A stretch of DNA of 64,000 nucleotides from assembly GCA_033030425.1 (NCBI GenBank), contig JAUFSD010000006.1:1-64000 (forward strand). Reading direction: 5' to 3'. Positions 1 to 34,888 of this stretch are shown here, one piece after another. This DNA is from Verpa conica. Its lineage: Eukaryota; Ascomycota; Pezizomycetes; Pezizales; Morchellaceae. Within the stretch, counting starts at the first letter, position 1, and each line of letters starts with the position of its first letter. The position numbers were made by a program, and so were the translations under genes. The notes below the pieces were generated by a model. That model did no database searches, had not been told where the DNA came from, and was given only the letters and a program-made list of their open reading frames with translations.

Positions 1-110
1 CCCAACTAAACCCTAACTAAACCCTAACTAAACCCTAACTAAACCCTAAACTAACCCTAACTAACCCTAAACTAACCCTAACTAAACTAACCCTAAACTA
101 AACCCTAACA
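1..110. repeat. Telomere-like repeat tract, C-rich strand
   Basis: The tract is built from CCCTAA-type units, but most are interrupted by an extra CTAA or CTAAA, giving units such as CCCTAACTAAA and CCCTAAACTAA instead of uniform CCCTAA. The C-rich strand reads 5' to 3' from base 1, as expected at the left end of a chromosome. The irregular units could reflect a slipping telomerase template, a degenerate proximal telomere, or base-calling error in a repeat. It joins retroelement sequence at 111 with no spacer. Confidence 0.8.
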
Positions 111-1065
111 AGGTACGGCCACTACGAATACACGGTCATGCCTTTCGGACTGACCAACGCCCCCGCGACCTTTCAACATTTTGTCAACGACTGCTTGAGG
201 GAATATCTGGACCAGTTCTGCACCGCCTATTTAGACGACATTCTCATATACAGCGACACTCTCAAGAACACAGGCTGCGCGTCGAGAAAAGTGTTCTGGG
301 CCTTAAGTAACAACGAGTACTTCTAAAAACCCGAAAAATGCGAGTTCCACTGCCAGAAGACAACATACTTAGGACTGGTTATCTCACTGAAGGTATTAGC
401 ATGGACACAAAGAAGGTATCAGCAGTTATGGACTGGACACGACCCAAGCATCTTAAAGATCTACAAGCATTTCTCGCTTTCGCTAACTTCTACAGACGCT
501 TTATCAAAGATTTCTCCAAACTAGCCGCCTCTCTTACCGCTTTCACAAGAAAATAACCAGGAACTAAAGAACATGTTCCCCTTTATTTGGATTTAACGAC
601 CACCAACTAGCGTTCGATACATTAAAGCGCGCCTTCACCTCAAGCACTGGCCCTAATGCACTTCGACCTGCAGAAACCAATCGTAGTAGAAACAGACGCC
701 TCCGATTACGTTTCCGCGGGAGTGCTATCCCAAAAAGATAGTCAAGGAATTTTACACCCTGTGGCATTCTTCTCCAAGAAACACTCCCCAGCCGAATGCA
801 ACTACGAAATTTATGACAAGGAACTACTGGCGATTATTAGAAGTTTTGAGGAATGGAGACCAGGAACTGGAAGGAGCCGCCTTCCCATCGCAGTCATATC
901 GGACCATAAGAATTTGGAATATTTTATGACTACCAAAAATCTTAATCGAAGACAAGCGCGGTGGGCCGAATATCTTCGCGTTTTAATTTCGTAATCACAT
1001 ACCGACCAGGAAAACAAGGAGGGAAACCAGACGCGTTGACAAGAAGATCGAGGAGATCTCCCTGG
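111..1065 (+). pseudogene. Gypsy reverse transcriptase / RNase H fragment
   Basis: The RT palm motif [10 protein letters not shown] lies near 228-257, after [13 protein letters not shown] at 138-176. A premature TAA at about 324 is followed by the KPEKCEFH motif, then a frame change leads into an MDW..P segment (425-445) and NFYRRFIKDFS (487-519). The RNase H part (656-1000) contains the VETDASDY and [13 protein letters not shown] motifs and a DHKNLEYF segment, again with frame breaks near 860 and 980. Family knowledge identifies these motifs as the Ty3 RT connection and RNase H. The gene is inactive. Confidence 0.88.
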
Positions 1066-1102
1066 AGAGGGGGATGAAAGAATACAACACCCGAGTCAAA
1101 TA

Positions 1103-2660
1103 GTGTTGAAAAAGGAAAATTTAGATCCTAAGTTAAGTTTGTTAGCGGGTACTTTGTCAAATGAACCCGCTGAAATGACTGTTCCCATAGCAAAATTGAT
1201 ACAAGAGGCACAAAAAACTGACCCGTTTCCGCAAAAGGTTTTAGGAATGTTGGCCAGAGGAGAAAAGAAATCCTCGAGAGATATCACTGAGCCAGAGTCT
1301 TCAGAAAATAACGGACTCCTCTATTATCGAAATTGCCTGTATATACCCGACTACGATCCCCTTCGCCTGCACATTCTTAGGGAACACCATGACGCACCAG
1401 CAGCAGGACATCGGGCAGAGAAAAACCTTTGAACTAGTCGTCGTCAGTACTTCGGCCAAAAATGCGCGAGTACATCGGAAGATACACCAGAAACTGCCAC
1501 ACCTGCCAAAGGAAGCAAGCCGTACCCACAGTAAATACGGAGTCCTCCGTCCCTACCCATTCCAGAACAACCATGGAAAGAGGTATCGATGGACTTCGTC
1601 ACCGGCTTACCAGAAAGCAACGGGTTCGACGCCATATTGGTAGTAGTGGATAGACTGTCCAAGATGCGGCATTTGATCCCTTGCCACACCACCACCGACG
1701 CAGGACAAGTAGCCAAACTGTACCTTCACAACGTTTGGAAACTTCACGGTCTCCCCACGCACGTTACCTCCGATAGAGGCACCCAGTTCACTTCGAAGTT
1801 CTGGAAAGCACTGTGCCAATTCCTGAAAATCGAAGCACGCATGTCGACTGCGTATCACCCAGAAACAGATGGGCAGACAGAAAGGATGAACGCAATCGTG
1901 GAACAATATCTTCGCGCATACATATCCTATCAACAGGACGACTGGAGTGAGTGGCTCACCTATGGCGGAGTTCGCAGCCAACAATCGGTTGTCAGAAACC
2001 ACCAAAGCCACTCCCTTCTTTTGCTAACTACGGGTTTCACCTCGCTTTCAAGTAAGTTTACACCTCGAGGACAAACTGCCCGAACTGGATGCAAGGGACT
2101 TCGCCTCGCGAATGACGGAATTGCATGAGTGGTTACGAACCCAAATGAGGACCGCACAGGACAAGCAGTGAACAGTACACAAACGCGCACCGGACCCCCG
2201 CCTCGGTATCAACCAGGGACATGGTTTTTGTATCCCTAAAAAACATTCGCACCACCGTGAACTCTAGGAAGCTCGATTGGAAAAAGCGGGTCCCTATCGC
2301 GTTAAAAAGCGTTGTTAGCCCCTATGCCTACGAGATCGAACTACCCAAATCCATGCCAAATCACCCAGTATTTCACGTCTCCCTCTGGAACCCTCCGCCT
2401 CGGACCCTTGCCAGACAGATACAACCTCCCCACCCCCATAGTTACTCGGGAGAACGGAGTGGGAGGTAGAAGAAATTCTAGATTCCAAAGTGATCCGAAG
2501 CCCGAGCTATTACGTCGAAGTGGACTGGCTATTCCCAACCCTCACGGGAACCTGCCGCACTGTGAGGAGACAGCAGCAGTGGACGTTTTTCATCGACAGT
2601 ATCCCAACAAACCAGGACCATGGGATTTGAAGCCTCGCAGGAGCTCGCGACTAAAAGGGG
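1103..2660 (+). pseudogene. Gypsy integrase and chromodomain-like tail
   Basis: An HHCC zinc-binding module is split between REHHDAPAAGH (about 1375-1410) and CHTCQRKQ (about 1495-1518), in different frames. The catalytic core is the best preserved part: MDFVTGLP at 1589, [24 protein letters not shown] near 1770 and the [11 protein letters not shown] block near 1855 supply the DDE residues. Downstream, the LPKSMPNHPVFHVSL segment near 2340 and an EVEEILDSK..YYVEVDWL segment followed by YPNKPGP resemble the GPY/chromodomain C-terminus. Several frameshifts and at least two stops after 2165 make it non-coding. Confidence 0.86.
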
Positions 2661-2666
2661 GGGCTA

Positions 2667-3015
2667 CTTTCACGGATCGATCAGGGGCGCCAGGGTGAGT
2701 CTCATCGTGACTCATGCGAGGAGGGAGGCAGGGTAACAGGTATTAAGGAAGGAGACAAAGGCGTTGTACGGCTGGGGATTTTGGGTATAAATAGGGAGCG
2801 TTCTTTCTCTCTCGTAATAGTTTTTCTTTCTCTTTTCCTCACGCAACGTTTCTTCAGTTAGACTCAATACAAACTTCTTTCTTCGCTGCCTCTCCGCTGT
2901 TTCATCGCTTCGCGATCGCTGAACCCACTTCCTACTTCACAAACCTTTGGTATTTTGCTTGTAACGGATAGTTACCTTGCCATCGAGTTAGTTGTATCCT
3001 GTGGTTACGCTGCCC
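2667..3015 (+). repeat. 3' LTR of the gypsy relic (approximate limits)
   Basis: A purine run (AAAAGGGGGGGC, 2653-2664) is in the position of the polypurine tract, directly before the sequence ACTTTCACGG that resembles an LTR start. The segment contains a TATA box and a pyrimidine-rich transcribed leader. The 3' limit is uncertain because no 5' LTR remains for comparison. Confidence 0.6.
2786..2794 (+). promoter_or_regulatory. TATA box in the LTR
   Basis: TATAAATAG sits about 120 bp into the LTR and is followed by the pyrimidine-rich stretch TTCTTTCTCTCTCG, the usual arrangement for an LTR promoter and start site. It is presumably a relic now. Confidence 0.55.
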
Positions 3016-3032
3016 TCACGCTGTCCCCCTTG

Positions 3033-3275
3033 AAAAATACACTCACCCAATACACGCAAGGAATACACTTAGAAAATACACTCTGGAAATACACTTACCC
3101 AATACATGCTGGGAATACACTTACTCAATAGACCGACCTACCCAATACACGTTGGAAATACACTCACAAAATACATTTATTTAATACACTCAAAGAATAC
3201 ACTCAAACAATACACTTAGAAAATACACTTAAAAAATACACTCATACAAAATACACTCAAAAATACATGTATAAA
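3033..3275. repeat. 15-bp AATACACT minisatellite
   Basis: About sixteen degenerate units with a core AATACACT and a variable tail (for example AATACACTCAAAGA, AATACACTTAGAAA) repeat roughly every 14-16 bp. A second short patch of the same core lies at 3535-3585. No coding content is seen. Confidence 0.85.
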
Positions 3276-4167
3276 GTACACGAGAGATGGAAATTCTATT
3301 AAATATATGTTTAGAGTTAAAGACAAACAGTTATAGTGATTACAAGTACAAAATACGTAAATATTAGAGAATATAATTCTGATAGTGTATTTCTCTGTAA
3401 TGATCACGATATCTACGATGGTTTGATACATGTAAAGCTATGCACAATATAATATATTTATTGCGTATCAGATATTAGTAGTATAAGCTTAATTAACCAT
3501 GACTATCAGTAGAGAACACTTTTAGTGTACACGGAATACATAGAAAACACTTATACACTCATAGTAATACACTCAATACACTCAACATGTAAAAAACCGA
3601 GTGATATTACATGACTCAATATTTATATGTACGGATTAGTGTATTAATTATACCATGTGATAGAGAATTTTCTCCTCTACAAGATGGTATATTTATTATA
3701 TGGTTCCGATTATTTTATTTATATTGTTGTGTGGTTGTGCTGAGCTTTACACAGGCCATACAAAATTTGTATGTGTAACCAATTTGAGGTGATCAGATAT
3801 ACTGTGGCCAAGCCCCACAACCAACCCCTTGCCAACAACACCACAACCCCCTGAACATGCCTTTTTTATGGGCTTAATCGATTCAGAGGGGTCTAATTAG
3901 TCTATAGCCAAAGCCTGGCGAAAAATATCTTATAGATTGTGGAGCTCCCATTTTCACTTGACTTACATTCAGGTGTATTAGGCACCGGGCTAACCTTAAA
4001 TTCTTAGATAAAAACTTTCCTTACCCCATTTTATCTAATGCTCCCATATATCCTCCTATATATCAAATTAAATCTAAAAAGAGCTGCAAAGTTATAATGT
4101 ACTAGAAAAGTAATATTTTAAGTATTTCTAACCCCATAGGGGTTAGCTAATGTAACGTTTTAGAGCA
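3276..4167. other. AT-rich subtelomeric DNA without a recognisable gene
   Basis: The stretch is AT-rich with short stop-laden frames. It carries one copy of the CCGAGTGAT boundary motif at 3597-3605 and, at 3858-3981, a 125-bp block (block F) that recurs at 8338-8461 with only a few differences. No RNA gene was seen. Confidence 0.6.
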
Positions 4168-4662
4168 TATAATCGTGACATGTGCCGAGTGATATCTCGT
4201 GACTCGTGCGACTGCGCAGGCAGGCAGGCAATAAGCAAGCAAACAGGCAACCAAGCAGCGCCACAGAGACGTCAGAGAGAGAAGAAGCAGCAGGCTCGTG
4301 AAGCGTCCTGCAGGTCAATATGCAGCACTGCATTGCGCACCATGGTCGAGAGCTCAGGGTGATCGAGCAACCTGCAGCAGCGCGCAGGCAAAAGGCAAGC
4401 GAGGAAGTACTCGACCATGTCCAGGTACATAGAGAGAGAGCTTATGACCACCAAGACACTGTCTGATTGCCCCTCTCTAGAAATAAATATACACAAGAGA
4501 CTACAAGAGTCGCCAAAATCTCGCTACCAGTCAAAAACCACCATGGATTGCGCCGTGGATCGAGCAGGTCCCACGGCTGCGCCGAAGCAACGCTACAGCA
4601 ACGTCTGCAGTAGGTAGGGGGTAGGGCTGCAGCGCAGGGGAGTCTATGGGGGGTCTATATAG
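4168..4662. repeat. Telomere-associated block A, copy 1
   Basis: The block begins around CCGAGTGATATCTCGTGACT (from 4185). It continues through CAGG/CAAG-rich microsatellite, a segment containing CATGTCCAGGTACATAGAGA (about 4417), a CCTCTCTAGAAAT segment and a GGTCCCACGGCTGCGCCGAA segment, and ends in G-rich GGGGGGTCTAT repeats. Related copies are at 6897-7427, 9563-10059, 10603-11152 and 11640-12185, with partial copies at 5398-5640 and 12602-12790. Short ORFs inside are by-products of the repeat. Confidence 0.8.
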
Positions 4663-5357
4663 GTGTCGAGCGACAGTAGGCTGCAGCGCAAGGTAAAGAA
4701 AACCCGTCGTGCGACAGTTTGGGTGTGGGGCTAGAGTGGTCTACTTTCTGTCGTGCGACAGGTTCCTGTGGGTCCCAGGGGGCTGCAATTGCTGTCGCCA
4801 GACAAGAAGCAAGTGCCAGGGTTGTCAAGAAAAGCTGTCGAACGACAGGTAGCTGCACCCAGCAAAAGCACAGATAGCTGTCGGGCGACAAGCAGGGACA
4901 GGCAGCAAGTCCCCAGTTGCTGTTGCTCGACAAAAAGCAAGTGCCAGAGATGTCTCTCTATGTTGTCGTCCGACAGTAATCTGCAGCCCTCAAAGCCATA
5001 AAAAGCTGTCGTGCAACAGAAGAGAGATGACAGAGAAGCCTCAATATATTGTCGAGCAACAATGATGCGCAGCCCCCAAAGTCACAAAAAGCTGTCGTGC
5101 GACAATCAGGTACAGCCAGCAAAGCCCCCAATTGCTGTCGAGTGACAAGCAGGCACATGAAGCAAAGGCCCAGATAGCTGTCGGGCGACAGTGTTTGGCG
5201 CCGCTGGAGAGAGAAGTTCTTGTCGAGCGACAGAAAGCAGTAGCCAAGCGCAGGTCCAGTACAGTCGAGCGACAGAAAGCTGCAGGTATAGGGAGAGAGA
5301 ACCTGTTGCCTAACAGCTATTATTGACGCCAACTCTGGTCTTCTTGTCGAGCGACAG
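4663..5357. repeat. Palindrome array 1: 17 units, 41-44 bp period
   Basis: Seventeen copies of a 14-bp inverted repeat, consensus YTGTCG-NN-CGACAR, start at 4663, 4704, 4748, 4792, 4835, 4878, 4920, 4963, 5006, 5049, 5092, 5135, 5178, 5220, 5262, 5303 and 5344. The interval is 43 bp for most steps (range 41-44). The 27-30 bp between palindromes differ strongly from unit to unit. The layout resembles a CRISPR array, but this is eukaryotic DNA without cas genes, the repeat is only 14 bp, and some intervening sequences recur. I read it as a minisatellite whose palindromic half is held nearly constant. Confidence 0.9.
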
Positions 5358-5397
5358 TTGACCCTAGCCCAGGTCACATACCAGGAAAAAACCATAT

Positions 5398-5640
5398 AAT
5401 AAATATATACAAGAGACTACAAAAGTCGCTAAAATCTTGCTACCAGTTGAAAACCACCGTGGATCGCGCCGTAGATCGAGAAGGTCCCATGGCTGCGCCG
5501 AAGCAACGCTACAGCAACGTCAGCAGCAGGCAGGGGGTAGGGCTGCAGCGCAGGGGGTCCATATGAGGGGTCTATATGGGGGGTCTATAGGGGGGGCAAT
5601 ATAGGGGGGCTGATATGGGGGGTTTGCACCAGCGCCCAGG
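5398..5640. repeat. Telomere-associated block A, 3' half
   Basis: This repeats the second half of block A: the ATACAAGAGACTACAAAAGT segment, the GCCGAAGCAACGCTACAGCA segment and G-rich TCTATAGGGGGGG repeats. It directly precedes a 415-bp block E copy. Confidence 0.75.
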
Positions 5641-6055
5641 CAAGCCGAGTGATAGATCATGATCCTAGTAATCCGTACATAAAAGCACACTTTTTACGGT
5701 CATTAGGGAGTCTCTATATACCAGTCAGTATACCCACCGAGTTTCAGCAATTTGGGACCACTCCATTATTTTGTATATTTACTAGTACTGAGATATTCGC
5801 TAGACTAACGCAAAAGTCCCCTGTTTTTGGTGTAGAATAATGCAAAAGTCATGACCAGATATACACCACAAAAGTCCCATGTAGCAGCCCCATGGCAACA
5901 CAGCCACAACCCCCTGTACTCGCCTTTTTTTTTATTGCAATCGACTCTCCAGGTGCTCTTTAGTCTATACCTCTTTAATTATAAATACTTTCTTTGTGGT
6001 TGTTGTGTTGTCGCCTAGCCACGATTTTGGTCTAGCCACGGTTTGAGGTATAGAT
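5641..6055. repeat. 415-bp block E, copy 1
   Basis: Block E recurs almost unchanged at 10060-10470 and 12186-12601. It opens with CCGAGTGATAG, contains TAATCCGTACATAAAAGCAC and the CCTGTTTTTGGTGTAG region, and ends with GCCACGGTTTGAGGTATAGA. Copies 1 and 2 keep a 63-codon frame with few replacements. The copies are so similar overall that this does not show coding selection. No transposase or terminal repeat was recognised. Confidence 0.85.
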
Positions 6056-6896
6056 GAGGGTCGACGTCCAGGTGCCGAGAGAGAAGTAACTGGACAAGCA
6101 AAAGTCGAAAAGAGAAGTCACAGTACATCAACTCCACTGTCACCAAGGCCCCACAAAGAAAAAAGACTGCACCCCCTTACGCAAGAAACGAAACCCCGAC
6201 AGAAACCGAGTGATTTTCTATGACTCGTGCAGTCGCCCCCCCCCACCAAGCGCAGCAAGCAAGCAGGCCTAGGAGCAGCGCTGCAGCGACTGCAGGCAGT
6301 TAAGGAATGCTGGGGCAGACGTGGGGTGCCTGGGTAGGGGGGTAGGGGTAGGGCGCAGCTTGTCAGCAGTCAGCGAAGTCACGAACGAGAGTTGCGCCGT
6401 GGCAGCGTGAGTGGTCCAGGTGCCGAGACAGAAGTACCTGGACAAGAGGAAGTGCATACAGAGGATCTCAGGACATCCAGACCACTGTCAGTTAGGTCCC
6501 ACTCTGAAAAAAGACTGCACTCCCTTACTCACAGAACGAAACCGCGACAAAAACCGAGTGATTTTCCGTGACCCGCGCAGTTGCCCCCCCCACCAAGCGC
6601 AGCAAGCAAGCAAGCCTAGGAGCAGCGCCACAGCGGCTGCAGGCAGGCAGGCGGTGTTAGGGCAGGCGTGGGGTGCCCGGGGTAGGGGCGGTAGGGGTAG
6701 GAGTAGGGCGCAGGCGCATGTTGTCAGCAGTCAGCGCAGTCACGAGTCGCGGCCGCGAAGTGGGAAGGGCCGAGGTCCAGGTGTCAAGAGGGAAGTACTT
6801 GGACAAGTAGAAGTGCATACAGAGGATCTCAAGACACCTAGACCACTATCAGTCAGTCCCCAGGGTGAAAAAAGACTGCACCCCCCTACTTAAAAA
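6056..6896. repeat. Tandem telomere-associated block D
   Basis: About two and a third units of roughly 360 bp. Each opens near TCCAGGTGCCGAGACAGAAG, a short hairpin closing with ACCTGGA. Each then passes through GACTGCACTCCC, a CCGAGTGATTTTC boundary motif (6206, 6554), a C-run with CAAGCGCAGCAAGC and a G-rich GGTAGGGGTAGGG stretch. Block D appears to be a diverged relative of block A, since both share the boundary motif and flanking order. Confidence 0.75.
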
Positions 6897-7427
6897 TCGA
6901 AATCGTGACATGGACCGAGTGATATTTCGTGACTCGTGCGACTGCGCAGCAAGCAGGCAAGCAGGCAAGCAGGCAAGCAGGCAAGCAGGCAAGCAGGCAG
7001 ACAAGCAGGCAGCGACGTCAGAGACAGGCCCCAGGCAGCTAGGCAAGCTGCAAGACGTCGCGCAGGCTAATATGCAGCACTGCATTGCGCGCCGTGGTCC
7101 AGAGCTCAGAGTGATCGGGCAATCTGCAGCAGCGCGCAGGCAAGAGGCAAGCGAGGAAGTACTCGACCATGTCCAAGTACATAGAGAGAGCTTATGACCG
7201 CCAAGACACTGTCTGATTGTCCCTCTCTAGAAGTAAAGATACACAGGGGACTACAAAAGTTGCCAAAATCTCGCTCCCAGCCGAAAACCACGGTGGATCG
7301 AGCAGGTCCCACAGCTGCGCAGAAGCAGCGCCACAGCGACGTCTGCAGCAGGCGCCCAGGCATGTGGGGGGTAAGGTTGCAGCGCTGGGGGGTCTATATG
7401 GGGGGGTCTATGGGGGGGTCTATATTG
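6897..7427. repeat. Telomere-associated block A, copy 2, with (AAGCAGGC)n
   Basis: This has the same order as block A at 4168. At about 6946-7012 it carries a clean 8-bp microsatellite AAGCAGGC (about eight units). It ends in (GGGGGTCTAT)n runs and leads straight into palindrome array 2, as copy 1 leads into array 1, so block plus array behaves as one duplicated module. Confidence 0.8.
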
Positions 7428-8296
7428 GTGTCGAGCGACAGTATGCTGCAGCGCGAAGTAAAGAAAACCCGTCGTGCTACAGTTCAGGTGTGGGGCTAGA
7501 GTGTTCCATTTTCTGTCGTGCGACAGGTTTTTGTGGGTCCCAGGGGGCTGCAATTGCTGTCGCCCAACAAGAAGCAAGTGCCAGAGTTGTCAAGAAAAGC
7601 TGTCGAGCGACAGAACCTTGCACTCAGCAAAGGCCAAGATAGCTGTCGGGCGACAATCAGGTACAGGCAGCAAAGTCCCCAGTTGCTGTCAAGCGACAGG
7701 AACCTGTACCCCCCAATGCCACAGAAAGCTGTCGTGCAACAGATTACTGGGGTCCCAGGGGGCTGCAATTGCTGTCGCCTGACAAGAAGCAAGTGCTAGA
7801 GTTGTCAAGAAAAGCTGTCGAGCGACAGGCAGCTGCACCCAGCAAAGGCACAGATAGCTGTCGGGCGACAAGCAGGGACAGGCAGCAAAGTCCCCAGTTG
7901 CTATCGTGCGACAAGTAACCGTGAGTCCCAGAGGGCTACAATTGCTGTTGCTCGACAAGAAGCAAGTGCCAGAGATGTCTCTCTATGTTGTCGTCCGACA
8001 ATAATGCGCAGCCCCCAAAGTCACGAAAAGCTGTCGTGCGACAATCAGGTACAGCCAGCAAAGCCCCCAATTGCTGTCGAGTGACAAGCAGGCACATGAA
8101 GCAAAGGCCCAGATAGCTGTCGGGCAACAGTGTCTGGTGCCGCTGGAGAAAGAAGTTCTTGTCGAGCGACAGAAAGCAGCAGCCCAGCGCAGGTCCAGTA
8201 CAGTCGAGCGACAGAAAGCTGCAGGTATAGGGAGAGAGAACCTGTTGCCCAACAGCTATTATTGACGCCAACTCTGGTCTTCTTGTCGAGCGACAG
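7428..8296. repeat. Palindrome array 2: 21 units, 41-44 bp period
   Basis: Twenty-one copies of the YTGTCG-NN-CGACAR inverted repeat start at 7428, 7469, 7513, 7557, 7600, 7643, 7686, 7729, 7772, 7815, 7858, 7901, 7945, 7988, 8031, 8074, 8117, 8159, 8201, 8242 and 8283. The first and last units match array 1 in order and spacer content. Array 2 differs mainly by about four extra whole units in the middle, where spacer types containing AAGCAAGTGCCAGAG and GGTCCCAGGGGGCTG recur. This fits unequal exchange in whole 43-bp steps. Confidence 0.9.
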
Positions 8297-8337
8297 TTGA
8301 CCCTAACCCAGGTCACATACCAGGAAAAAACCGTATA

Positions 8338-8461
8338 ATGCCTTTTTTATTAGCTTAATCGATTCAGAGGGGTCTAATTAGTCTATAGCCAAAGCCTGGC
8401 GAAAAATATCTTATAGGTTGTGGAGCTCCCATTTTCACTTGACTTACATTCAGGTGTATTA
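8338..8461. repeat. 125-bp block F, copy 2
   Basis: Near-identical to 3858-3981, from ATGCCTTTTTTAT through GATTCAGAGGGGTCTAATTA and AGCCAAAGCCTGGCG to CATTCAGGTGTATTAG. The ends are sharp, which suggests insertion or copy-paste of a discrete segment. Confidence 0.8.
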
Positions 8462-9562
8462 GTCAGCAAGGCCCCACAAAGAAAAAAGACTGCACTCCCC
8501 TACTCAAAAAAAGAAACCGCGACAAAAACCGAGTGATTTTCCATGACTCGCGCTGTCGCCCGCCCCAAGCGCAGCAAGCAGGCAAGCAAGCAGCGCCACA
8601 GCGACTGCAGGCAGGCAGGTGGTGCTGGGGCAGACGTGGGGTCTTTGGCGCAGGGGGGTGGGGGTAGGGGTAGGGGCAGGCGCAGGTTGCTGGCAGTCAG
8701 CGAACGTTTAGGGGAGAACCATGCCGTGGCGAGGGCCGAGGTCAGGGTGCCGAGAGAGAAGTACCTGGACAAGCAAAAGTGAAAAAGAGGAGTTACAGGA
8801 CATCAACTCCACTGTCAGTCAGGCCCTACAAAGAAAAAAGACTACACTCCCTTACTCAGAGAACGAAACCACGACAAAAACCGAGTGATCTTCCATGACT
8901 CGCGCAGTCGACCCCCCCCACCAAGCGCAGCAAGCAGCGCCACAGCGACTGCAGGCAGGCAGGGGGTGCTAGGAGAGACGTGGGGTGTCTAGGGCAGGGG
9001 GGTGGGGGTAGGGCGCAGGCGCAGGCGCAAGTTGCTAGCAGTCAGCGAACGCCTAAGCGTGGGCCGCACCGTGACGAGAGTCGAGGTCCAGGTGCCGAGA
9101 CAGAAGTACCTGGACAAGTAGAAGTGCATACAAAGGATCTCAGGACATCTAGACCACTGTCAGTCAGGTCCCACTGGGAAAAAAGACTGCACTCCCCCAC
9201 TCAAAAGAAGAAACCGCGATAAAAACCGAGTGATTTCTCATGATCCGCGCAGTCGCGCCCCCCCACCAAGCGCAGCAAGCAAGCAAGCCTAGGAGCAGCG
9301 CCACAGCGACTGCAGGCAGTCAGGCGGTGCTGGGAGAGACGTGGGGTGCCAAGCGCAGGGGGTGGGGGTAGGGCGCAGGCGCAGGTTGCCAGCAGTCAGC
9401 GAAATCACGAGTCCCGGCCGCAAAGTGGCAGCGTGAGAGGTCCAGGTGCCGAGACAGAAGTACCTGGACAAGAGGGAGTGCATACAAAGGACCTCAGGAC
9501 ATTTAGACCACTGTCAGTCAGTCCCCACAGTGAAAAAGTCCTGCACCTCCCCACTCAAAAGT
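8462..9562. repeat. Tandem block D, further copies
   Basis: Three full or near-full ~350 bp units plus a partial one, with boundary motifs at 8529, 8881 and 9226. Each carries the CAAGCGCAGCAAGC segment, CAGCGACTGCAGGCAG, and G-rich GGGGGTAGGG tracts. The internal ORFs change frame between units, which argues against coding. Confidence 0.75.
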
Positions 9563-10059
9563 CGAAATTGTGACATGGACCGAGTGATATCTCGTGACTC
9601 GTGAGACAAGCAGGCAGCAGGCAAGCAGGCAAGCAGGCAGACAAGCAGGCAGCGACGTCAGAGACAGGTCCCAGGCAGGTAGGGGGCTACGAAGCGCATC
9701 GAGCGTCGAATATGCGCACTGCAGCCGCGCCTTATTGTGGTCAGGGGCTTCCGCGGTGTTCGGGCAACCTGCAGCAGCGCGCAGCCGAGAGGCAGGCAAA
9801 AAAGTACCCGACCGTGTCTAGGTACATAGAGAGAGAGCTTATGACCGCCAAGACACTGTCTGATTGTCCCTCTCTGGAAATATAGATACACAAGGGACTA
9901 AAAAAGTCGCCAAAATCTCGCTCCCAGCCGAAAACCACCATGGATCGCGCCGTGGATCGAGCAGGTCTCATGGCTGCAATGCAGGGAGGTCCATATAGGG
10001 GGTCTATATAAGAGGTCTATAGGGGGGGTCGGTATGGGGGGCTTGCACCAGCGCCGAGG
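9563..10059. repeat. Telomere-associated block A, copy 3
   Basis: The boundary motif is at 9580, followed by CAGG/CAAG microsatellite, the GTACATAGAGAGAGAGCTTA segment, the CGCTCCCAGCCGAAAACCAC segment and a closing G-rich TCTATAGGGGGGG run. The middle part (about 9680-9760) is more diverged than in other copies. Confidence 0.75.
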
Positions 10060-10470
10060 CAAGCCGAGTGATAGGTCAAGATTCTAGTAATCCGTACATA
10101 AAAGCACACTTTTTACTATTATTAGGGGGTCTCTATATACCAGCCAGTATACCCACCGAGTTTCAGCAATTTGGGACCACTCCATTATTTTGTATATTTA
10201 CTAGTGCTGAGATATTCGCTAGACTAACGCAAAAGTCCCCTGTTTTTGGTGTAGAATAACGCAAAAGTCATGACCAGATGTACACCACAAAAGTCCCATG
10301 TAGCAGCCCCATGGCAACACAGCCACAACCCCCTGTACTCGCCTTTTTTTTTATTGCAATCGACTCTCCAGGTGCTCTTTAGTCTATACCTCTTTAATTA
10401 TAAATACTTTCTTTGTGGTTGTTGTGTTGTCGCCTAGCCACGATTTTGGTCTAGCCACGGTTTGAGGTAT
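10060..10470. repeat. 415-bp block E, copy 2
   Basis: Very similar to 5641-6055 along its whole length, with the boundary motif at 10064 and the end at GTTTGAGGTATAGA. It follows a G-rich end of block A, as copies 1 and 3 do. Confidence 0.85.
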
Positions 10471-11152
10471 AGAGGGAGAGGTCCAGGTGCCGAGACAGAA
10501 GTACCTGGACAAGAGGAAGTGTATGCAAGGTATCACAGGACATATAAACCACTGTCAGCCAGGCCCTACTGTGAAAAAAGACTGCACCTCCCCACTCAAT
10601 AGTGGAAATCGTGACATAGGCCGAGTGATATCTCGTGACTCGTGCGACTGCGCAAGCAGGCAGGCAATAGGCAAGCAAGCAGGCGACGCCATAGAGACGT
10701 CAGAGAGAGACCCCAGGCAGTTAGGCAGGCTGCAAGGCGTCGCGCAGGTCAATATGCAACTCTACACTGCGCACCGTGGTCCAGAGCTCAAGGTGATCGG
10801 GCAACCTGCAGTGGCGCGCAGGCGAGAGGCAAGCGAGGAAGTACCCGACTATGTCCAGGTACATATTGAGAGAGCTTGTGACCGCTAAGACACTGTCTCA
10901 TTGTCCCTCTCTAGAAATATAGATACACAAGGCACTACAAAAGTCGCCAAAACCTCGCTACCAGCCGAAAACCGCCATGGATCAGGCAGGTCCCACGGCT
11001 GCGCCGAAGCAACGCCACAGCGACGTCTGCAGCAGGCGCCCAGGCAGGTAGGGGGTAGGACTGCAGCGCAAAGGGTCTATATGGGGGGGTCTATGGGGGG
11101 GTCTATGGGGGGAGTCTATGGGGGGGGGTCTATGGAGGGGGTCCTTGCGCGC
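10471..11152. repeat. Partial block D followed by block A, copy 4
   Basis: 10483-10602 repeats the first third of block D (GTCCAGGTGCCGAGACAGAA). Block A then follows from the boundary motif at 10621. The closing G-rich tract, 11066-11146, has five TCTATGGGGGGG-type units on this strand and could form G-quadruplexes. Confidence 0.75.
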
Positions 11153-11235
11153 AGGGAAGCGAGGGTTAGGTGAACCTTATTTCCCTCGATCGAAGGAAAT
11201 CAATGGGAGGTGGCGCAATATTGCTTAGTGGCGCC

Positions 11236-11320
11236 TATAAAGTCGCTTTTAATTATGGCGCCATCTATAAAGTCGCTTTTAATTATGGCGCCATCTATAA
11301 AGTCGCTTTTAATTATGGCG
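11236..11320. repeat. 30-bp direct repeat, about three units
   Basis: The unit, starting at 11236, 11266 and 11296, contains TATAAAGTCGCTTTTAATTA and a GGCGCC palindrome. The surrounding 11215-11340 carries further TGGCGC copies. The small ORFs on both strands here are translations of this repeat and are not genes. Confidence 0.9.
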
Positions 11321-11552
11321 CACATAGTGGCGCTGCCAGATAAGGCAGGTGCTGCTAGTCTCGGCAGCGCTTGGCGCTCCCCCACGGAAAATGACCACCC
11401 CTTCTAATGTATATATGGATGTAAAAATCATGGAGTTTAGCGATTCTAAATGTATGGGTCGATTCGCCTTCCTTTTCTCTATCGATCCCTGCTTTCAGCG
11501 CCCGGAAAACCCCAGGCTATATAAGGACTAACTGTGACTTTTCCGCTATTAT

Positions 11553-12185
11553 AGTGTATGCAAGGTATCACAGGACATATAAACCACTGTCAATCAGGCC
11601 CTACTGTGAAAAAGGACTGCACTCCCCCACTCACAAGTCGAAATCGTGACATGGACCGAGTGATATTTCGTGACTCGTGAGATTGCGCAGGCAGCAGGCA
11701 AGCAAGCAGGCAGGCAGGCAAGCAGGCGACGCCATAGAGACGTCAGAGAGAGACGTCAGAGAGAGACACCAGGCAGGTAGGGGTGCTGCAAGGCGCTGCG
11801 CAGGTCAATATGCAGCACTGCATTGCGCGCCGTGGTACAGGGCTCGGGGTGATCGGGCAACCTGCAGCAGCGCGCAGCCGAGAGGCAAGCGAGGAAGTAC
11901 TCGACCATGTCCAGGTACATAAAGAGAGAGCTTGTAACCTCCAAGGCCTTGTCTGATTGCCCCTCTCTAGAAATAAAAATACACAGGGGACTACAAAGGT
12001 GACCAAAACCTCGCTGCCAGCCGAAAACCGCCGTGGATGGAGCAGATCGCACGGCTGCGCTGAAGCAAAGCCACAGCGACGTCTGCAGCAGGTGCCCAGG
12101 CAGGCGGAGGGTAGGGCTGCAGCGCTGGGGGGTCTATATGGGGGGTCAATATGGGGGTCTATGGGGGGCTTGCACCAGCGCGCAG
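11553..12185. repeat. Partial block D end plus block A, copy 5
   Basis: GTATGCAAGGTATCACAGGA (11553) matches 10520 and opens a short D remnant. Block A follows from the boundary motif at 11656, including a local duplication of GACGTCAGAGAGA near 11740-11765, and a final G-rich run before block E. Confidence 0.75.
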
Positions 12186-12601
12186 GCAGGGAACCGAGTG
12201 ATAGTTCATGATTCTAGTAATCCGTACATAAAAGCACACTTTTTACAATCATCAGGGAGTCTCTATATACCAGCCAGTATACCCACTGAGTTTCAGCAAT
12301 TTGGGACCACTCCATTATTTTTTGTATTTACTAGTACTGAGATATTCGCTAGAGTGACGCAAAAGTCCCCTGTTTTTGGTGTGGGGTGACGCAAAAATCA
12401 TGACCAGATATACACCACAAAAGTCCCATGTAGCAGCCCCATGGCAACACAGCCACAACCCCCTGTATTTGCCTTTTTATTTATTGCAATTGATTCTCCA
12501 AGTGCTCTTTAGTCTATACCTCTTTAATTATAAATACTTTCTTTGTGGTTGTTGTGTTGTCGCCTAGCCACGATTTTGGTCTAGCCACGGTTCGAGGTAT
12601 A
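12186..12601. repeat. 415-bp block E, copy 3
   Basis: Third copy of block E, boundary motif at 12194, ending GGTTCGAGGTATAGA. It differs from copies 1 and 2 by scattered substitutions and a shorter T-run near 12473. Confidence 0.85.
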
Positions 12602-12790
12602 GATTGTCACTCTCTAGAAATAAGGATACACAGGAGGCTACAAAAGTCGCCAAAACCTCGCTCCCAGCCGAAAAACCACCATGGATCGAGCAGGTCCCAC
12701 GGCTGCGCAGAAGCAACGCTACAGCGACGTCTGCAGCAGGCGCCCAGGCAGGTGGGGGGTAGGGCTGCAGCGCAGGGGGGTCTATATGGG
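12602..12790. repeat. Block A, 3' half, last copy
   Basis: It starts at the CTCTCTAGAAATAAGGATAC segment and ends in the G-rich GGGGTCTATATGGGGG run, where the last palindrome array begins. Confidence 0.7.
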
Positions 12791-12792
12791 GG

Positions 12793-12954
12793 ACTCCCGC
12801 TCGGGAGTGAGCAAAGCAGCAGCAGAGGACTCCCGTCCGGGAGTAGCCTGATAGTAAGAAGTATAGAAAGACTACTCGAGTGAGTCTTATGCTCCCGAGC
12901 GGGAGCCACACTAAGTCACTCCCGGCCGGGAGTGGACCACTCTATGGCGGGAGT
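12793..12954. repeat. Second palindrome family, ACTCCCG-NN-CGGGAGT
   Basis: Sixteen-base inverted repeats occur at 12793, 12829, 12891 (GCTCCCGAGCGGGAGC) and 12918, with a degenerate copy at 12939. A related imperfect palindrome around CTCGAG lies at 12870-12886. Arms of seven bases flank a two-base centre, the same design as the 14-bp palindromes at 4.7 and 7.4 kb but with an unrelated sequence. Spacing is less regular (21-62 bp). Confidence 0.85.
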
Positions 12955-12959
12955 CAGAG

Positions 12960-13335
12960 GACTGCTTTAAGTAAAAAAGTGAGTTTCTAGCCATAGCCCT
13001 AAGGCTTGACACGCATTTTCGCCCTATAATATATTGTGGAGGAATATATTATATATAATCTAGATGAGGCTCTCGATTTCTATAAGAGTGACCGGGTATT
13101 TTTGTCCCCCTACAATAGTTGATCCCCTGATACGCTTGGTTGAGCCCCCAAAGTCTGCCTTATTTAACATATATATTGGCCTTATCTTAAGTGGTGTACG
13201 GACAAATATGGTATGGGCTTGCAGGCTCCTATGGTGGTTTTCACTCTAGGAATATAGAAGTCATGTTTGGTCACATTCAGGAAGGGGCAAATTTTGGGGA
13301 GCTTAAGAAATATTCGTTTTTATGTATCTAGTTTA
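12960..13335. other. Transition from repeats to single-copy DNA, no gene seen
   Basis: It contains an AT-rich palindromic stretch (ATATATTGTGGAGGAATATA, from about 13028) and short frames only. No feature could be assigned. Confidence 0.5.
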
Positions 13336-14013
13336 TCAAAAGTTCCTCTCGTACATTTGAATGCTAATCAATTTTCTCGACTGCGAGGCCGAGATGACCG
13401 ACTCCTCCAGGCGCGTTCGTACGGCCCTCTCTCTCTCTGGAGTCTGTTTGTGTTCGTAGCGCTCCCCCGCTGATATCCAGGTGTATTTCAAGGCCTGCTT
13501 CGCTGAAAGTCGTAAACCTGGGTCCAGGGCCAGCAACGCCTTCACAAAATTCCTACAGCTCCTACTAACGCCTATTCTTCTGAGGTATTCGGTGGGGAAA
13601 TCTATCTTCCCATCGTAGTATTGTACGATTAAACGAATATCCATGCTGGGAGCTGCTTGGGCCTGTGTAACGCCTGAGTACACGCTGTCATTATCGTCGT
13701 CGTCGTCGTCAGGAATTTCAGTAAACGGTACATAGTCGGTTAGGACCCAATGTACGAGACAGCCCAGTGACCATATATGGACGGCGTTTGTATAAGGTTT
13801 TCCTGAGTTGTATATTTGCTCGGGTGCAGAATATCCAGGTGACATGATGGTGGTATGGAGCTTTGTGTCAGTGGTAGTCTTAGAGATCCCGAAGTCCGCA
13901 AGTATAACATGGATATGGTTCCGGGATGTGGCAAGGACATTCTATAAACGACAGTGAGAAACCGAGTCATCAAGAGCGGAATATGGGAGGGAGGAGACCT
14001 CTGGTTTGATATC
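13336..14013 (-). pseudogene. Protein kinase C-lobe fragment
   Basis: On the minus strand, DIKPE (13999-14013) joins ENVL after a 57-bp GT-AG intron (13942-13998). This gives DIKPENVL, then ILADFGISK with the DFG motif near 13880, a GYSAPEQ (APE-type) motif at 13820-13840, and the WSLGCLVHWVL helix. An acidic run of six Asp sits in the C-lobe, and the conserved late Arg lies in DPGLRLSAKQAL. The catalytic-loop Asp is present, but the two residues before it read GS instead of HR. No N-lobe (glycine loop, VAIK Lys) could be found upstream through 14.4 kb. I infer a truncated subtelomeric kinase gene; an unrecognised upstream exon is the alternative. Kinase identity is secure, subfamily is not. 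Confidence 0.75.
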
Positions 14014-31665: not shown

Positions 31666-32227
31666 AAGCGACAACCACAACGAGAAGACGAGTTTTTGAA
31701 ATTTACAACACAACAACAAAGATATTATCAGAGAAAAGCACATTTCCATCATCAGCAGAATCAGGGCTATCCAGCCATCTTCTTTTTACCCAGATAGGAG
31801 TTCTTTCACAAAACTTCCTAAGTTCCTCCCTCAGAAAAGCGCCAAGAAGTGGGCTTTTACCCAATCAGGTGGTGACACAACCTCTCTCTGAGAGTAAGTG
31901 AAGTGTTCATCACCCTAACTCAATAACCAACACAGCTATTATCAAACAGAGAAAGGGATCAGGATCCTGGAGCTCTGTTTGTACAGATACCAAAGTTTTT
32001 CGAATTTGCAGCAAAGGACACATTCCCCTTTGTTTACTTCCTCTGGGAAGCTACCCCACCCCAGAGAGGCTTGGCGTTTCGCTGAAGCAGCTGTTACCCT
32101 ACTGACCAGGCTTGGCAAAGGCTTGGCACAGAAACGAGCAGAAGGATCAAGAATCAAGGGAGATAAGATTAGGAGATTAGGAAGATAAGATAAGATAAAA
32201 CAAGGAAAGGATAAGAAGATAGTCACC

Positions 32228-34888
32228 ATGACAACCAACGTGGCAGCAAAGAACAGGGAAGACCCCCTTGCGGAACTGAGAGACTTCAAAGGAAACACCA
32301 CACAGGCCTTCCAAGTGTTGAAAGGGAGTCTGTCGATTATTTACAGAGCCCAGCTGGGAAGCGGACTCAGGAAAGTATGGGCGAGGAATGCAGAGAAAGA
32401 GTTCGAACTGGTGGACGTTGAGTGCAAGAAGGTCAAGGGAGTGTGGAACATGATGGCAGTAGACTGGAACTGGAGAGCAGGAGAGACTGTTATATCGTGG
32501 AAGGAACTTAAGGACACGGTCGATAACTTTAAGAACTGGAGCGATTACGTCCCCTCCTCCTCCTCCAGCGGGAAGCCCTATACGTGGTCTACCACGTCTA
32601 ATGGTGAACTAGTTAGCGAGATCACACCAGGCTTGAAAGTCGACAGCAACACAGGACTGGGCTTTAAACCCAGGTATACAACAGAACCAGAAGTTATCAA
32701 CTTGATCACGTCTGAGATACAGGAACCCAGGGAACGCGCATCACCCTCTTCTTCCTCCTCCTCCTCCCCATCCCCCGTTCCTCCTTCATCACCACCAGTA
32801 GTACCCGGTCAGGGCAGGGAGTGGTGCAGTCACTCCGAGTGCGGTGACGAGTGCAAAGAAGAACTGATGGAGTTAGAAGGGGATCCAAAGTCGAGCGCAG
32901 CATCAGACAACAATAGCAGTGTGGTAGAGGACACAAGGGACAGCGAAATGACGGATCTGAGCAGTGAGGCGTCAGAACCAACCCTGCCGGACCCAGTCCC
33001 GGAATCCCCAGTAGAAGAGGTGGAGAGAATGTGGGAAGGCTACTCCCTCGAAGAAAGAGTTGAAGTAGGAGTCATGGTAGTTAGAGCGGTCAGGAGCGAA
33101 GTGGCAGAAGCACAAGGGAGCACAGACGGCATGGACATAGACGACCTGGAGGATTGGAGAGAACACCTCCGCGATAGCGAGGAACCCGAATTTATGAGGA
33201 GGGTCATGCAGGTCACAGGCTTGGACAAGGAAATGGAGAAGGCCCCTGCGGGAAAAAGGAAGGAGATGGCTCAGGCGATTGCAGAAGAAACGTGGGACAC
33301 TTGGTGCAACAAAAGACATAAGTATTACACAGGCCCCAAAAAAGTAGTCAGAGACCAGATGATTACCGGCCTCCTCGCCAGCAAACATGCACATGTAGCT
33401 GATCAAGCGCTCGCCAATTACAAAACCAGCCTGGAAATCATAGCCCTTCAGAAGCGGAATAGGAAGGCCCTACAAGAACCTGAGTTTATAACAGGAACCA
33501 ACGACACTGGACCGGCAAGCGACAGTGAAGAGGAGGAGAAGGCCAGCAACGAGGCAGGAGCAGGTATTCCGGAGTGGGGCCTGAAGCTGATGAGTGAAGT
33601 TAGCAGGCTGAGGAAAAAGGTGGCTAAGCTGGAAGGGGAGAAGGAAGCCACCCGCAGAAGGAAGGGCAGAACACCAGAGTGGATTGTAAGGCGTGACCCC
33701 ACAGCAAAGGGGGAAAAGATAACTCGCAATCAGAGCCAGAACCAGAGCCGAGAAAGGAAATCGACACCCTCCCCCTCCACACAACAGCGAACCAAGGCCA
33801 AACCGATGGTAGTGGTTGAAAAGAGGGCAAATTTGGGCACGGGGGCAAACGCAATAGCTTTGGGAAGTGGGGAGGACAGCACCGTGAAAACAGGTAACTG
33901 GAGAGTGGTAGAAAAGAAGGAGATCGAGAGAATGTCCGAGAAGAGGAAGAGAAGGTTGGGGGAGAAAAGAGAGAAAGAGGTTATCGTGGAAATTAGCACC
34001 AAGGGAGAGGAAGATGAGGAGGCACTAGCCAACCTCGGGAAGTCCGAGTATGCGAAGGCACTTAGTGTGAAACCGGAGGAGGTGGTGGGAGTAAGAATAC
34101 TCCCAAAGAGAAATAACAAACCAAGCGCAGTAGTGGTCCAGCTGGTCAACGCAAAGATCGCAGAGTTAGCCAGCAAGACCGATTCCACCAAGTATAAGCT
34201 AGGCACAGGGGTCTCGAAACTCACAGCAGCCCCGAGCGAAGGCCTAGAGATCCTAGGCACCAAGACAAGGGGGGAAGACTGGTTTGGAGTTGTAGTTTTT
34301 GCAGTTGATACCAAGTGGGGCCAGGACCTCGGAAGACTCCAGACCCGCATTGAGAAAGACAACAACACTAGGCTCATGAGAACCCCACACTGGCTTACCA
34401 AAGCGGACACCAAGGGAAGAGGAACTTTGGACCTCGTCCTCCATTTTGCTAGCAAGGAGGCAGCGGAGCAGGCCACCAGAGGGGGGATTAGACTCCCGGA
34501 CCAGTACGATTATTCAGCACAAGGCCTCAAAGTACATCAAGTGAGAGAGTACATCTCCAAGGCAGCAAAGAGAGAAGCCATGTGCAGCACCTGCTGTAAG
34601 TGGGGACATTGGTGGGCGGTATGTCCAGTTCGAGGGCAGGGCAAAGCCGCGGTGTGTGGGATCTGTGCCAGGAGCGGACACGCAACGTATCAACACCCGT
34701 GCGATAAGTCTAGAGAGGGGTGCAACTCTAAAGGGTGGTGCAACAAGGAGGGACACTGGCAAGCAAAGAAGTGCGCCAACTGCGGAGGCCCCCACTCAGC
34801 AAAGTCGCCGTATTGCAAGAAGAGAAAAGAGTACTTTGCGTCTACCATTAGCGACACCCCCACCCCCATACTGTTGAATAAATGTTAG
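32228..34888 (+). CDS. LINE ORF1 protein (Gag-like RNA-binding)
   Basis: 886 aa, starting at an ATG in a CACCATGA context. The N-terminal half is charged, with a Ser/Pro-rich segment (SSSSSSPSPVPPSSPP, about 180-195) and acidic stretches. A short coiled-coil-like part (SRLRKKVAKLEGEKEATRR) lies near 458. The C-terminal end carries three zinc knuckles: CSTCCKWGHWWAVC (about 784), CGICARSGHATYQHPC (about 811) and CANCGGPHSAKSPYC (about 849). This pattern is typical of Tad/I-type LINE ORF1 proteins, which coat the element RNA to form the ribonucleoprotein. It overlaps ORF2 by seven bases. No nonsense or frameshift mutation is seen. Confidence 0.92.
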   Translation: MTTNVAAKNREDPLAELRDFKGNTTQAFQVLKGSLSIIYRAQLGSGLRKVWARNAEKEFELVDVECKKVKGVWNMMAVDWNWRAGETVISWKELKDTVDNFKNWSDYVPSSSSSGKPYTWSTTSNGELVSEITPGLKVDSNTGLGFKPRYTTEPEVINLITSEIQEPRERASPSSSSSSSPSPVPPSSPPVVPGQGREWCSHSECGDECKEELMELEGDPKSSAASDNNSSVVEDTRDSEMTDLSSEASEPTLPDPVPESPVEEVERMWEGYSLEERVEVGVMVVRAVRSEVAEAQGSTDGMDIDDLEDWREHLRDSEEPEFMRRVMQVTGLDKEMEKAPAGKRKEMAQAIAEETWDTWCNKRHKYYTGPKKVVRDQMITGLLASKHAHVADQALANYKTSLEIIALQKRNRKALQEPEFITGTNDTGPASDSEEEEKASNEAGAGIPEWGLKLMSEVSRLRKKVAKLEGEKEATRRRKGRTPEWIVRRDPTAKGEKITRNQSQNQSRERKSTPSPSTQQRTKAKPMVVVEKRANLGTGANAIALGSGEDSTVKTGNWRVVEKKEIERMSEKRKRRLGEKREKEVIVEISTKGEEDEEALANLGKSEYAKALSVKPEEVVGVRILPKRNNKPSAVVVQLVNAKIAELASKTDSTKYKLGTGVSKLTAAPSEGLEILGTKTRGEDWFGVVVFAVDTKWGQDLGRLQTRIEKDNNTRLMRTPHWLTKADTKGRGTLDLVLHFASKEAAEQATRGGIRLPDQYDYSAQGLKVHQVREYISKAAKREAMCSTCCKWGHWWAVCPVRGQGKAAVCGICARSGHATYQHPCDKSREGCNSKGWCNKEGHWQAKKCANCGGPHSAKSPYCKKRKEYFASTISDTPTPILLNKC

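Follow-up and report, generated by a model that had tools for sequence, protein, structure and literature searches.

Palindrome arrays in the subtelomeres of Verpa conica as 3′ modules of a probable telomere-attached retroposon family

The window analysed here, a stretch of 64,000 nucleotides at the start of a Verpa conica contig, opens with telomere repeats, followed by a series of element copies that includes two palindrome arrays (Table 1). A preliminary description of this DNA had counted 17 and 21 palindromes, recurring every 41-44 bp and mostly at 43 bp. Both arrays were found where it had placed them, with steps of 43 bp in 20 cases, 41 bp in six, 42 bp in five and 44 bp in five (n = 36). 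A scan of the window allowing two mismatches gave 43 palindrome matches against 4.6 expected and a maximum of 10 in 100 shuffles; 37 of the 43 are array units, and the one remaining array unit, at 5303, carries three mismatches and so falls below the threshold.

Table 1. Features of the window, with positions counted from its first letter
Feature	Position	Strand	Basis or content
Telomere repeat tract, AACTAAACCCT / AACTAACCCT type; contig end	1..108	+	sequence
Copy 1, 5′-truncated: backbone (BBa, BBb) and G-rich (GGGGGTCTATAT)n leader	4171..4662	+	
Palindrome array 1	4663..5357	+	17 units YTGTCG-NN-CGACAR
Constant 3′ tail of copy 1 (TTGACCCTA..CATATAAT), sharp 3′ terminus	5358..5400	+	
Copy cut on 5′ side (BBb from position 20), module M3, end GGTATAG	5401..6053	+	
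Array-2 copy: 350-bp repeats, BBa, BBb, G-rich leader	6054..7427	+	
Palindrome array 2	7428..8296	+	21 units
Constant 3′ tail of array-2 copy, end CGTATAAT	8297..8339	+	
S128 fragment (97% copy of 3857-3984), adjoins 3′ end of array-2 copy	8340..8465	+	
Copy: three 350-bp repeats, backbone, G-rich leader, M3 (end GGTATAG)	8462..10472	+	
Copy with module M4 (30-bp units with TGGCGCCA), end ATTATAG	10473..11554	+	
Copy with module M3	11555..12602	+	
Copy with module CTC, end CCCTATAAT	12603..13030	+	

On comparison of the copies, a common order can be read, in which 350-bp repeats are followed by a backbone, a G-rich tract and one of several 3′ modules, namely the TGTCG array, the CTCCCG module (CTC), M3 or M4, with M5 probably a further one. 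The element 5′ terminus, CACGCGCGAACC, is joined to telomere repeats, and the 3′ ends read TATAAT or TATAG. As judged from this comparison, each array is the 3′ module of a larger element and not a free-standing satellite, a point that the preliminary description had missed. The CTC copy of the window contains four palindromes of another kind, CTCCCG-NN-CGGGAG (at 12794, 12830, 12892 and 12919).

A genome-wide search, as had been proposed, revealed the same arrays at other chromosome ends. Exact cores number 162, of which 139 lie within array units near contig ends and the remaining 23 are at about chance level (control 31); the suggested subtelomeric bias is thus borne out, the arrays being confined to subtelomeres. 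Twenty-four chains were built by palindrome search, which may have overlooked units whose arms are badly decayed and would then overstate arm conservation; C18L 2050 is a lone unit within another module and no array. The intervening DNA, described earlier as widely diverged, does vary more than the arms, but it is not unique. Spacer types recur within arrays, between arrays and between chromosome ends, with 218 of 281 units falling into 16 groups (linkage at 80% spacer identity or more), and in C5L neighbouring units that are identical or nearly so show that units duplicate in tandem. The arrays share with CRISPR arrays a palindromic repeat and a near-constant step; however, the 278 units contain 109 distinct palindromes and the spacers form shared groups, so that repeats as well as spacers are imperfect and shared, and the CRISPR-like label was therefore dropped. 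Both parts also decay, and the host is a fungus.

The preliminary description had also argued that a step of 43 bp would place all sites on one face of the DNA. This argument is weak, since at an assumed 10.5 bp per turn each unit runs about 34 degrees past four turns and small indels are no rarer in the spacers than in the backbone (88/474 or 0.186 per substitution vs 181/931 or 0.194, p 0.78, in a nearest-neighbour count). A smaller first count, which left out two length variants, leaned the opposite way, with 0 internal gap events over 79 spacer substitution steps vs 34 over 378 in BBa and BBb; in view of the larger count, a spacing constraint on the arrays is unproven.

As for the arms, said to be near-constant, they do change more slowly than the spacers, but unevenly, with frequent changes at CpG positions. 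After dropping 6 of 284 units with more than three arm mismatches, T3, A10, C11 and A12 are each kept in 274-276 of the 278 units, G2 in 263 and T1 in 241, and the CpG positions C4, G9, G5 and C8 in 245, 232, 267 and 261 respectively. Diversity (pi) at non-CpG arm sites is 0.052 vs 0.145 at non-CpG spacer sites (permutation 0/10000), in line with the arm constraint proposed earlier; with CpG columns included the values are 0.106 and 0.159 (22/10000). For pi and for the pairing tests, 3 of 284 units with more than four arm mismatches were dropped, and pi was then computed on the 218 grouped units, the arms being less variable than the spacers in 14 of the 16 groups. That the palindrome is just the better homogenised part of a neutral 43-bp tandem repeat seems to us quite improbable. 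The tandem duplication in C5L and the sharing of spacer types are what such a minisatellite would give, and with CpG included the arms are as variable as the spacers in one of five position-anchored sets (0.158 vs 0.151). However, non-CpG arm columns are about three-fold less variable than spacers within groups of related spacers and lower in all five position-anchored sets, and the poor-arm units removed before the position counts are few (the six mentioned above). Similarly the unrelated palindrome family of the CTC module gives the same contrast (arms 0.013 vs 0.081, P 0.005, on 10 of 11 rows, the partly misaligned L006 being left out).

A dimeric site, a hairpin and a recombinase site had all been offered as reasons for this constraint. 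The most economical reading of the palindrome, in view of its symmetry and constraint, appears to be a dimeric DNA site, of the type recognised by dimeric transcription factors (e.g. a Zn2Cys6 inverted repeat), and YTGTCGNNCGACAR would be a candidate target of sequence-specific binding needing both half-sites. We judge it unlikely that the palindromes work instead at the level of the element's RNA, whether as hairpins or through promiscuous pairing from unit to unit. Array parts fold better than shuffles (z -3.1 to -4.4), and the arms are complementary by definition, promiscuous pairing needing no covariation; however, pairing of the outer Y/R bases is rarer than chance would give (OR 0.38, p 0.002), the changes C4>T and G9>A occur independently of each other (the pairs G5/C8 and G2/C11 showing very few changes), and arm changes comprise 66 G>A vs 43 of the G-U-tolerated C>T (p 0.03, with units not independent). 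A 2-nt hairpin loop is also sterically poor. No compensatory stem changes were thus seen, and arm changes lean to the class not tolerated by a hairpin on the + strand; a dimer-binding DNA site is favoured because the tested stem positions do not compensate, yet the excess folding energy on both strands means that the hairpin reading is lowered rather than dropped. A recombinase or nuclease site acting at the central dinucleotide is very improbable. The central 2 bp vary and are self-complementary in 1 of 278 units, which resembles an asymmetric crossover core, but centres are inherited between units and are therefore not independent, and the fourth palindrome of the CTC module is usually centred on self-complementary GC.

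Further clues come from the ends of the copies. Amongst 22 array termini, read without requiring the terminus sequence, the 3′ end is TATAAT in 19 and TATAAA or TATAAC in three, and the DNA beyond is unrelated and different from copy to copy. Copies with the modules CTC, M3 and M4, each kind located through its own end motif, likewise run into differing DNA. The 5′ ends are either complete or cut at many points: eight chains have as their first unit GTGTCRAGCRACAG, which follows the G-rich leader, those at C16L, C18L, C6R and C3R start inside the array beside another element's 3′ end, and that at C15R starts inside the array beside telomere repeat. Such a combination of fixed 3′ and variable 5′ ends is of the HeT-A type. 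The 3′ end faces inward at 19 of the 22 array termini, with opposite polarity in three short copies (C5R, C20R, C22R), at two of which, C5R and C20R, no target-site duplication is evident by eye. All 40 scored BBb backbone matches (from 68 first-look candidates) and all 38 CTC matches have the expected orientation, with the 5′ end toward the chromosome end as in MoTeR and FoTeR elements. The 5′-terminus pattern occurs within about 300 bp of contig ends, exactly at C3, C18 and C19 and with one mismatch at C20 and C22; the other five of its 10 matches carry 2-3 mismatches, and three of them are interior. None of the 22 array termini runs directly into telomere repeat. At C17L a short LINE tail follows the array terminus, with telomere-like bases beyond it.

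Where one element meets the next, the cut neighbour could be recognised for 23 of 45 module ends, the other 22 having no usable parent and parents sharing the end being left out; as the 45 ends were gathered by patterns containing the terminus, decayed or different ends would be missed. Amongst these 23, counted only from alignments whose first base directly follows the end, 19 share 1-3 nt with the incoming 3′ end and 14 share at least 2 nt, with a mean of 1.74 vs a null of 0.33 (0/20000), although two of the parents match over just 19-20 bp.

Fixed 3′ ends, variable 5′ ends, inward polarity and microhomology together fit stepwise HeT-A-like retroposition onto eroded ends. We consider it reasonably probable that both arrays belong, as 3′ modules, to a family of telomere-attached retroposons that appears to be non-coding, the palindrome being most likely a dimer site. 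The 3′-OH of an eroded chromosome end would base-pair through 1-3 nt with the element RNA at its 3′ end, a reverse transcriptase would then copy this RNA outward, and the new 5′ end would be capped by telomerase. Later erosion would leave a 5′-truncated copy on which the next element lands, repeated landing giving head-to-tail stacks with 3′ ends inward. The palindrome, repeated along the module, would be a candidate site for a DNA-binding protein of symmetric (dimeric) form; it may be kept by selection acting on those element lineages that are active, with copies decaying afterwards, chiefly through CpG transition. Taking HeT-A as a model, one may guess that the array is an activating region for the next inward element. 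Less probable is that a telomerase-positive fungus has a second, RNA-templated way of rebuilding its ends, in which swappable 3′ cassettes of palindromic protein sites would give the element or its host a handle on expression or delivery.

The same stacks could have arisen by repair after telomere failure without any RNA, through microhomology-mediated or break-induced copying from other subtelomeres, with the modules being ordinary repeats; this we regard as rather unlikely. Microhomology of 1-3 nt and terminal truncations fit such repair too, and for Magnaporthe PMC8381367 describes end repair in which internal sequence is picked up and tandem arrays form in the subtelomere. However, copying from a donor should begin at many points, and the array termini stop at one point in 19 of 22, with one base changed in the other three. 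CTC, M3 and M4 copies also each end at their own motif before differing DNA, an argument that is weaker because the end motif was part of the search pattern. If retroposition is the true origin, these stacks of 3′-inward elements, joined by microhomology and lacking evident genes, would document, in nature, how ends have repeatedly eroded and been repaired from RNA templates with telomerase still present. Since they can be read junction by junction, retroposition as a telomere back-up outside flies becomes directly testable, and the palindrome arrays, being defined and well replicated, offer a bait for a protein with a possible role at chromosome ends.

Amongst known systems, Penelope-like/Athena elements and terminons are added to chromosome ends independently of an endonuclease with their 3′ ends inward, and the array family resembles them in polarity and, on the reading preferred here, would resemble them in its addition to ends. 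HeT-A, TART and TAHRE of Drosophila likewise have inward 3′ ends and 5′ truncation, as in the array elements, and end in oligo(A); no poly(A) was found at the 3′ ends of the present elements. Tandem stacks at chromosome ends, insertion at a terminal 3′-OH and a member relying on another element's machinery (the last two putative for the array elements) are further likenesses, according to excerpts of PMC4700185, which also place the HeT-A promoter in its 3′ UTR and describe Drosophila as being without telomerase. Unlike the HeT-A group, this fungus has telomerase, and its elements end in TATAAT or TATAG, have an interchangeable 3′ half and show no protein family in the frames tested. MoTeR of Magnaporthe and FoTeR of Fusarium similarly have the 5′ end toward the chromosome end, 5′-truncated copies, internal tandem repeats and a telomere motif at the 5′ end; in FoTeR, telomere repeats follow the 3′ ends and a reverse transcriptase and a REL endonuclease are encoded (excerpts of PMC12857005 and PMC8381367). 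Unlike in FoTeR, the 3′ ends of the array elements adjoin non-telomeric DNA, and no reverse transcriptase was found in them. Amongst the literature matches listed, with closed journals outside the scope, none described palindrome arrays of this kind or the element family itself.

No reverse transcriptase was seen in the element regions, where five open frames, a subset of frames and copies, gave no Pfam match. Rfam gave five matches in positions 2700-13400 of the window, all well below gathering scores, and neither hammerheads nor any other family passed that threshold there. A telomeric LINE (L012), considered as a partner, was rejected, its 3′ end being AATCAC followed by telomere repeat, unlike the module ends. 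The elements do not appear to replace telomerase, as a telomerase RNA-binding domain is present in two pieces (C11:378823-379297), one with two in-frame stops that are possibly introns, and telomere repeats occur at contig ends.

A telomere repeat of about 108 bp opens the window at the left end of contig C6, and the two arrays of tandem YTGTCG-NN-CGACAR palindromes reported in the preliminary description were found in their places, with 17 and 21 units. Their claimed period of 43 bp holds for 20 of 36 steps, the others being 41, 42 or 44 bp. Palindrome matches in the window number 43 against 4.6 expected (scan with up to two mismatches), and the genome of 45.8 Mb (25 contigs) contains 162 copies of the exact core TGTCGNNCGACA, as compared to 31 for a reversed control pattern. 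Since 139 of the 162 cores sit within the array units read, the motif outside arrays is at chance level. Searches with the DNA of array 2 and with the tail sequence of the arrays (19 matches genome-wide) locate the arrays within about 39 kb of contig ends, in line with the subtelomeric bias initially proposed. Reading covered 20 contig left ends (the window and 19 stretches of 10 kb), one further C6 stretch, 3-kb loci and 13 short stretches. In all, 284 units were read in 24 chains of up to 31 units, one chain being a lone unit within another module. All counts come from one genome, where homologous copies are non-independent samples.

The array was found to be one of several alternative 3' modules of a larger element. 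Twenty-two array termini, read outward from the last palindrome with the terminus not part of the search, have a common tail (shorter at the right end of C22) and an identical stop point, 19 with TATAAT and three with TATAAA or TATAAC, beyond which the DNA is unrelated to the element. On the 5' side, eight chains are preceded by the common backbone and then a G-rich leader, (GGGGGTCTATAT)n, others being cut within the array. The common order is 350-bp repeats, backbone parts BBa and BBb, G-rich leader and a single 3' module, which is the TGTCG array, a CTC module with four CTCCCG-NN-CGGGAG palindromes, M3 or M4. The CTC module ends in TATAAT, and M3 and M4 in TATAG, with the sequence beyond varying from copy to copy; these copies were gathered with patterns that include the end motif. 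A fifth, probable module (M5) carries a near-perfect hairpin, GGTAATACG-GTR-CGTATTACC; one copy in locus L023 continues into array-type units and that in L007 ends GGGTATAAT. The CTC palindromes constitute a second family of the same arm-CG-NN-CG-arm form, with 106 exact copies of CTCCCGNNCGGGAG genome-wide as compared to one for the control.

Features of the window and of other subtelomeric loci (L numbers are loci read)
Feature	Position	Remarks
TGTCG array 1	window 4663-5357	
TGTCG array 2	window 7428-8296	
CTC palindrome family	window 12793-13030	four sites, usual spacings 36/62/27; subtelomeric 3' module
M5	L005 1480-1850; L007 4060-4190; L023 2080-2400 and 4120-4430	repeated AAACGCGGTAAAAAACGCG-like units
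Third gap-2 palindrome, ATGCAG-CA-CTGCAT	window 4320, 7072, 11810	in backbone copies; 15 occurrences, 9 loci
Telomeric LINE	L012 2401-8199, C8 left end	RT frame 989 aa; relative in Morchella sextelata
Ty3/gypsy-like relic	window 110-2700	decayed, immediately behind telomere repeats; integrase core in one open piece
Two-frame LINE	window 32189-38886	endonuclease, RT and RNase H domains; strong purine skew
AATACACTC-type minisatellite	window 3035-3270; L009; L012	repeated across several subtelomeres

The backbone matches scored (40, from 68 first-look candidates) and the 38 CTC matches share one polarity without exception, + strand near left ends and − strand near right ends, the assignment on C21, C23, C24 and C25 being by match position only. 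The same polarity was observed for 19 of the 22 array termini, the exceptions being short copies at the right ends of C5, C20 and C22. At C3 and C19 the 5' terminus of the element, CACGCGCGAACC, abuts the telomere repeat, and assembled C1 and C11 start at a terminus of this type. Ten matches to a pattern for this terminus were obtained at up to three mismatches: five, with 0-1 mismatch, lie no more than ~300 bp from contig ends, two others lie ~7 kb from the C13 end and three are interior. Telomere repeats adjoin a truncated array at the right end of C15 and a truncated 5' region at C2, and may also cap truncated elements directly.

At the 3' side, 23 of 45 module ends were kept, namely those whose downstream sequence has a relative elsewhere, alignable from the first base (across just 19-20 bp in two cases). 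In 19 of these 23 junctions the incoming element's final 1-3 bases recur in the relative directly before the aligned sequence; microhomology averages 1.74, versus 0.33 for random offsets (none of 20,000 trials reaching this value). Microhomology is missing at four junctions, two of M3 (L006, L014) and two of arrays (L009, L020); in L007 the array junction has 1 nt rather than 3 with alternative relatives. We infer an RNA intermediate, the 3' end of which would pair transiently with the 3'-OH at the tip of an eroded chromosome; erosion would take place between successive additions, and telomerase would cap the new ends. Telomerase is present in the genome, therefore such addition would supplement, not replace, normal telomere synthesis.

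MoTeR/FoTeR elements, like the array elements, have their 5' ends facing outward, occur as truncated copies and carry tandem repeats internally, but they encode RT, and FoTeR 3' ends run into telomere repeats (PMC12857005). In the array family, the five open frames tested from elements with arrays (part of the frames and copies) gave no Pfam match, and the 3' ends meet unrelated DNA. Stacking and terminal addition are also described for HeT-A (PMC4700185). HeT-A replaces telomerase, whereas this genome has one. HeT-A ends in oligo(A). Features that define each group were looked for in the array family and not found, so we assign it to neither; we classify it as a variant form of telomere-attached retroposon, working like MoTeR/FoTeR and HeT-A. 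A literature search, covering the best-ranked matches for several queries, returned no earlier description of the family.

Arms and spacers were compared in 218 of 281 units, placed by single linkage in 16 groups of at least 80% spacer identity, a procedure that would tend to underestimate spacer divergence rather than inflate it. The mean pairwise difference is 0.052 at the six non-CpG arm positions versus 0.145 in non-CpG spacer columns (0 of 10,000 permutations; arms lower in 14 of 16 groups), bearing out the constraint on the arms suggested earlier. It is 0.159 for all spacer columns, 0.188 and 0.293 for CpG positions of arms and spacers, and 0.214 for the palindrome centre; all ten arm positions give 0.106 (22 of 10,000 permutations against all spacer columns). 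Right-end sets anchored by position gave 0.022, 0.088, 0.057, 0.096 and 0.000 for non-CpG arms versus 0.131, 0.151, 0.217, 0.228 and 0.557 for spacers, and with CpG counted one of the five lacks the arm reduction (0.158 versus 0.151). As chains were found via their palindromes, badly decayed units may be missing. The same contrast is seen in the unrelated CTC palindromes (0.013 versus 0.081, P 0.005, 10 sequences). In the subtelomeric sequence read, palindromes with 6-bp arms number 174 at a 2-bp gap, versus 53 and 69 at gaps of 1 and 3 bp and 116 at 4 bp, the last overlapping in part with the 2-bp sites; sequence from further inside the contigs (61 kb) shows no excess (16 versus 17 and 18). 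The central dinucleotide is self-complementary (CG) in one of 278 non-independent units, AT, TA and GC occurring in none.

The preliminary description had offered both a dimeric DNA site and a hairpin as the source of this constraint. If the arms formed a stem, their changes should compensate; with arms numbered T1 G2 T3 C4 G5-NN-C8 G9 A10 C11 A12, C4>T and G9>A changes are independent (4 double changes among 245, OR 0.85), the G5/C8 and G2/C11 pairs have few changes, and the outer Y/R bases (positions 0 and 13) pair less often than expected (OR 0.38, p 0.002). G>A changes, which are not tolerated as G-U pairs in + strand RNA, exceed C>T (66 versus 43, p 0.03, units non-independent). Array and CTC pieces do have more stable folds than shuffled sequences, whichever strand is taken (z -3.1 to -6.4), and backbone and M3 do not, which speaks for a role in RNA, although any palindrome-rich DNA would show such excess folding. 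A symmetric protein site on DNA is considered about twice as likely as a palindrome acting in RNA. Its core, CG-NN-CG, presumably resembles the inverted half-sites of fungal Zn2Cys6 factors. Across array units the outer Y and R show negative covariation, with an excess of C..A and T..G. As to function, one guess is that arrays might promote transcription of the neighbouring element on the inner side, as the 3' promoter of HeT-A does (PMC4700185); another guess would make them a tether for an RNA-protein complex or a silencing factor.

The telomeric LINE of C8 was rejected as the RT partner of the array family, its 3' end, AATCAC, being unlike the module ends; this end is followed by a short telomere repeat and a second copy (86%). 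Among 150 scored of 186 candidates, other RT matches near ends (C9, C17, C4, C3, C25) mostly have the polarity of this LINE, and one at C8:1862208, ~22 kb from an end, is opposite. The host is probably a pezizomycete, judging by the closest named relatives of two proteins, which are in Morchella sextelata (44% over 58%) and Discina gigas (37% over 76%). The AATACACTC-type minisatellite is also found just inside two element 3' ends, that of a CTC module in L009 and that of an array in L038.
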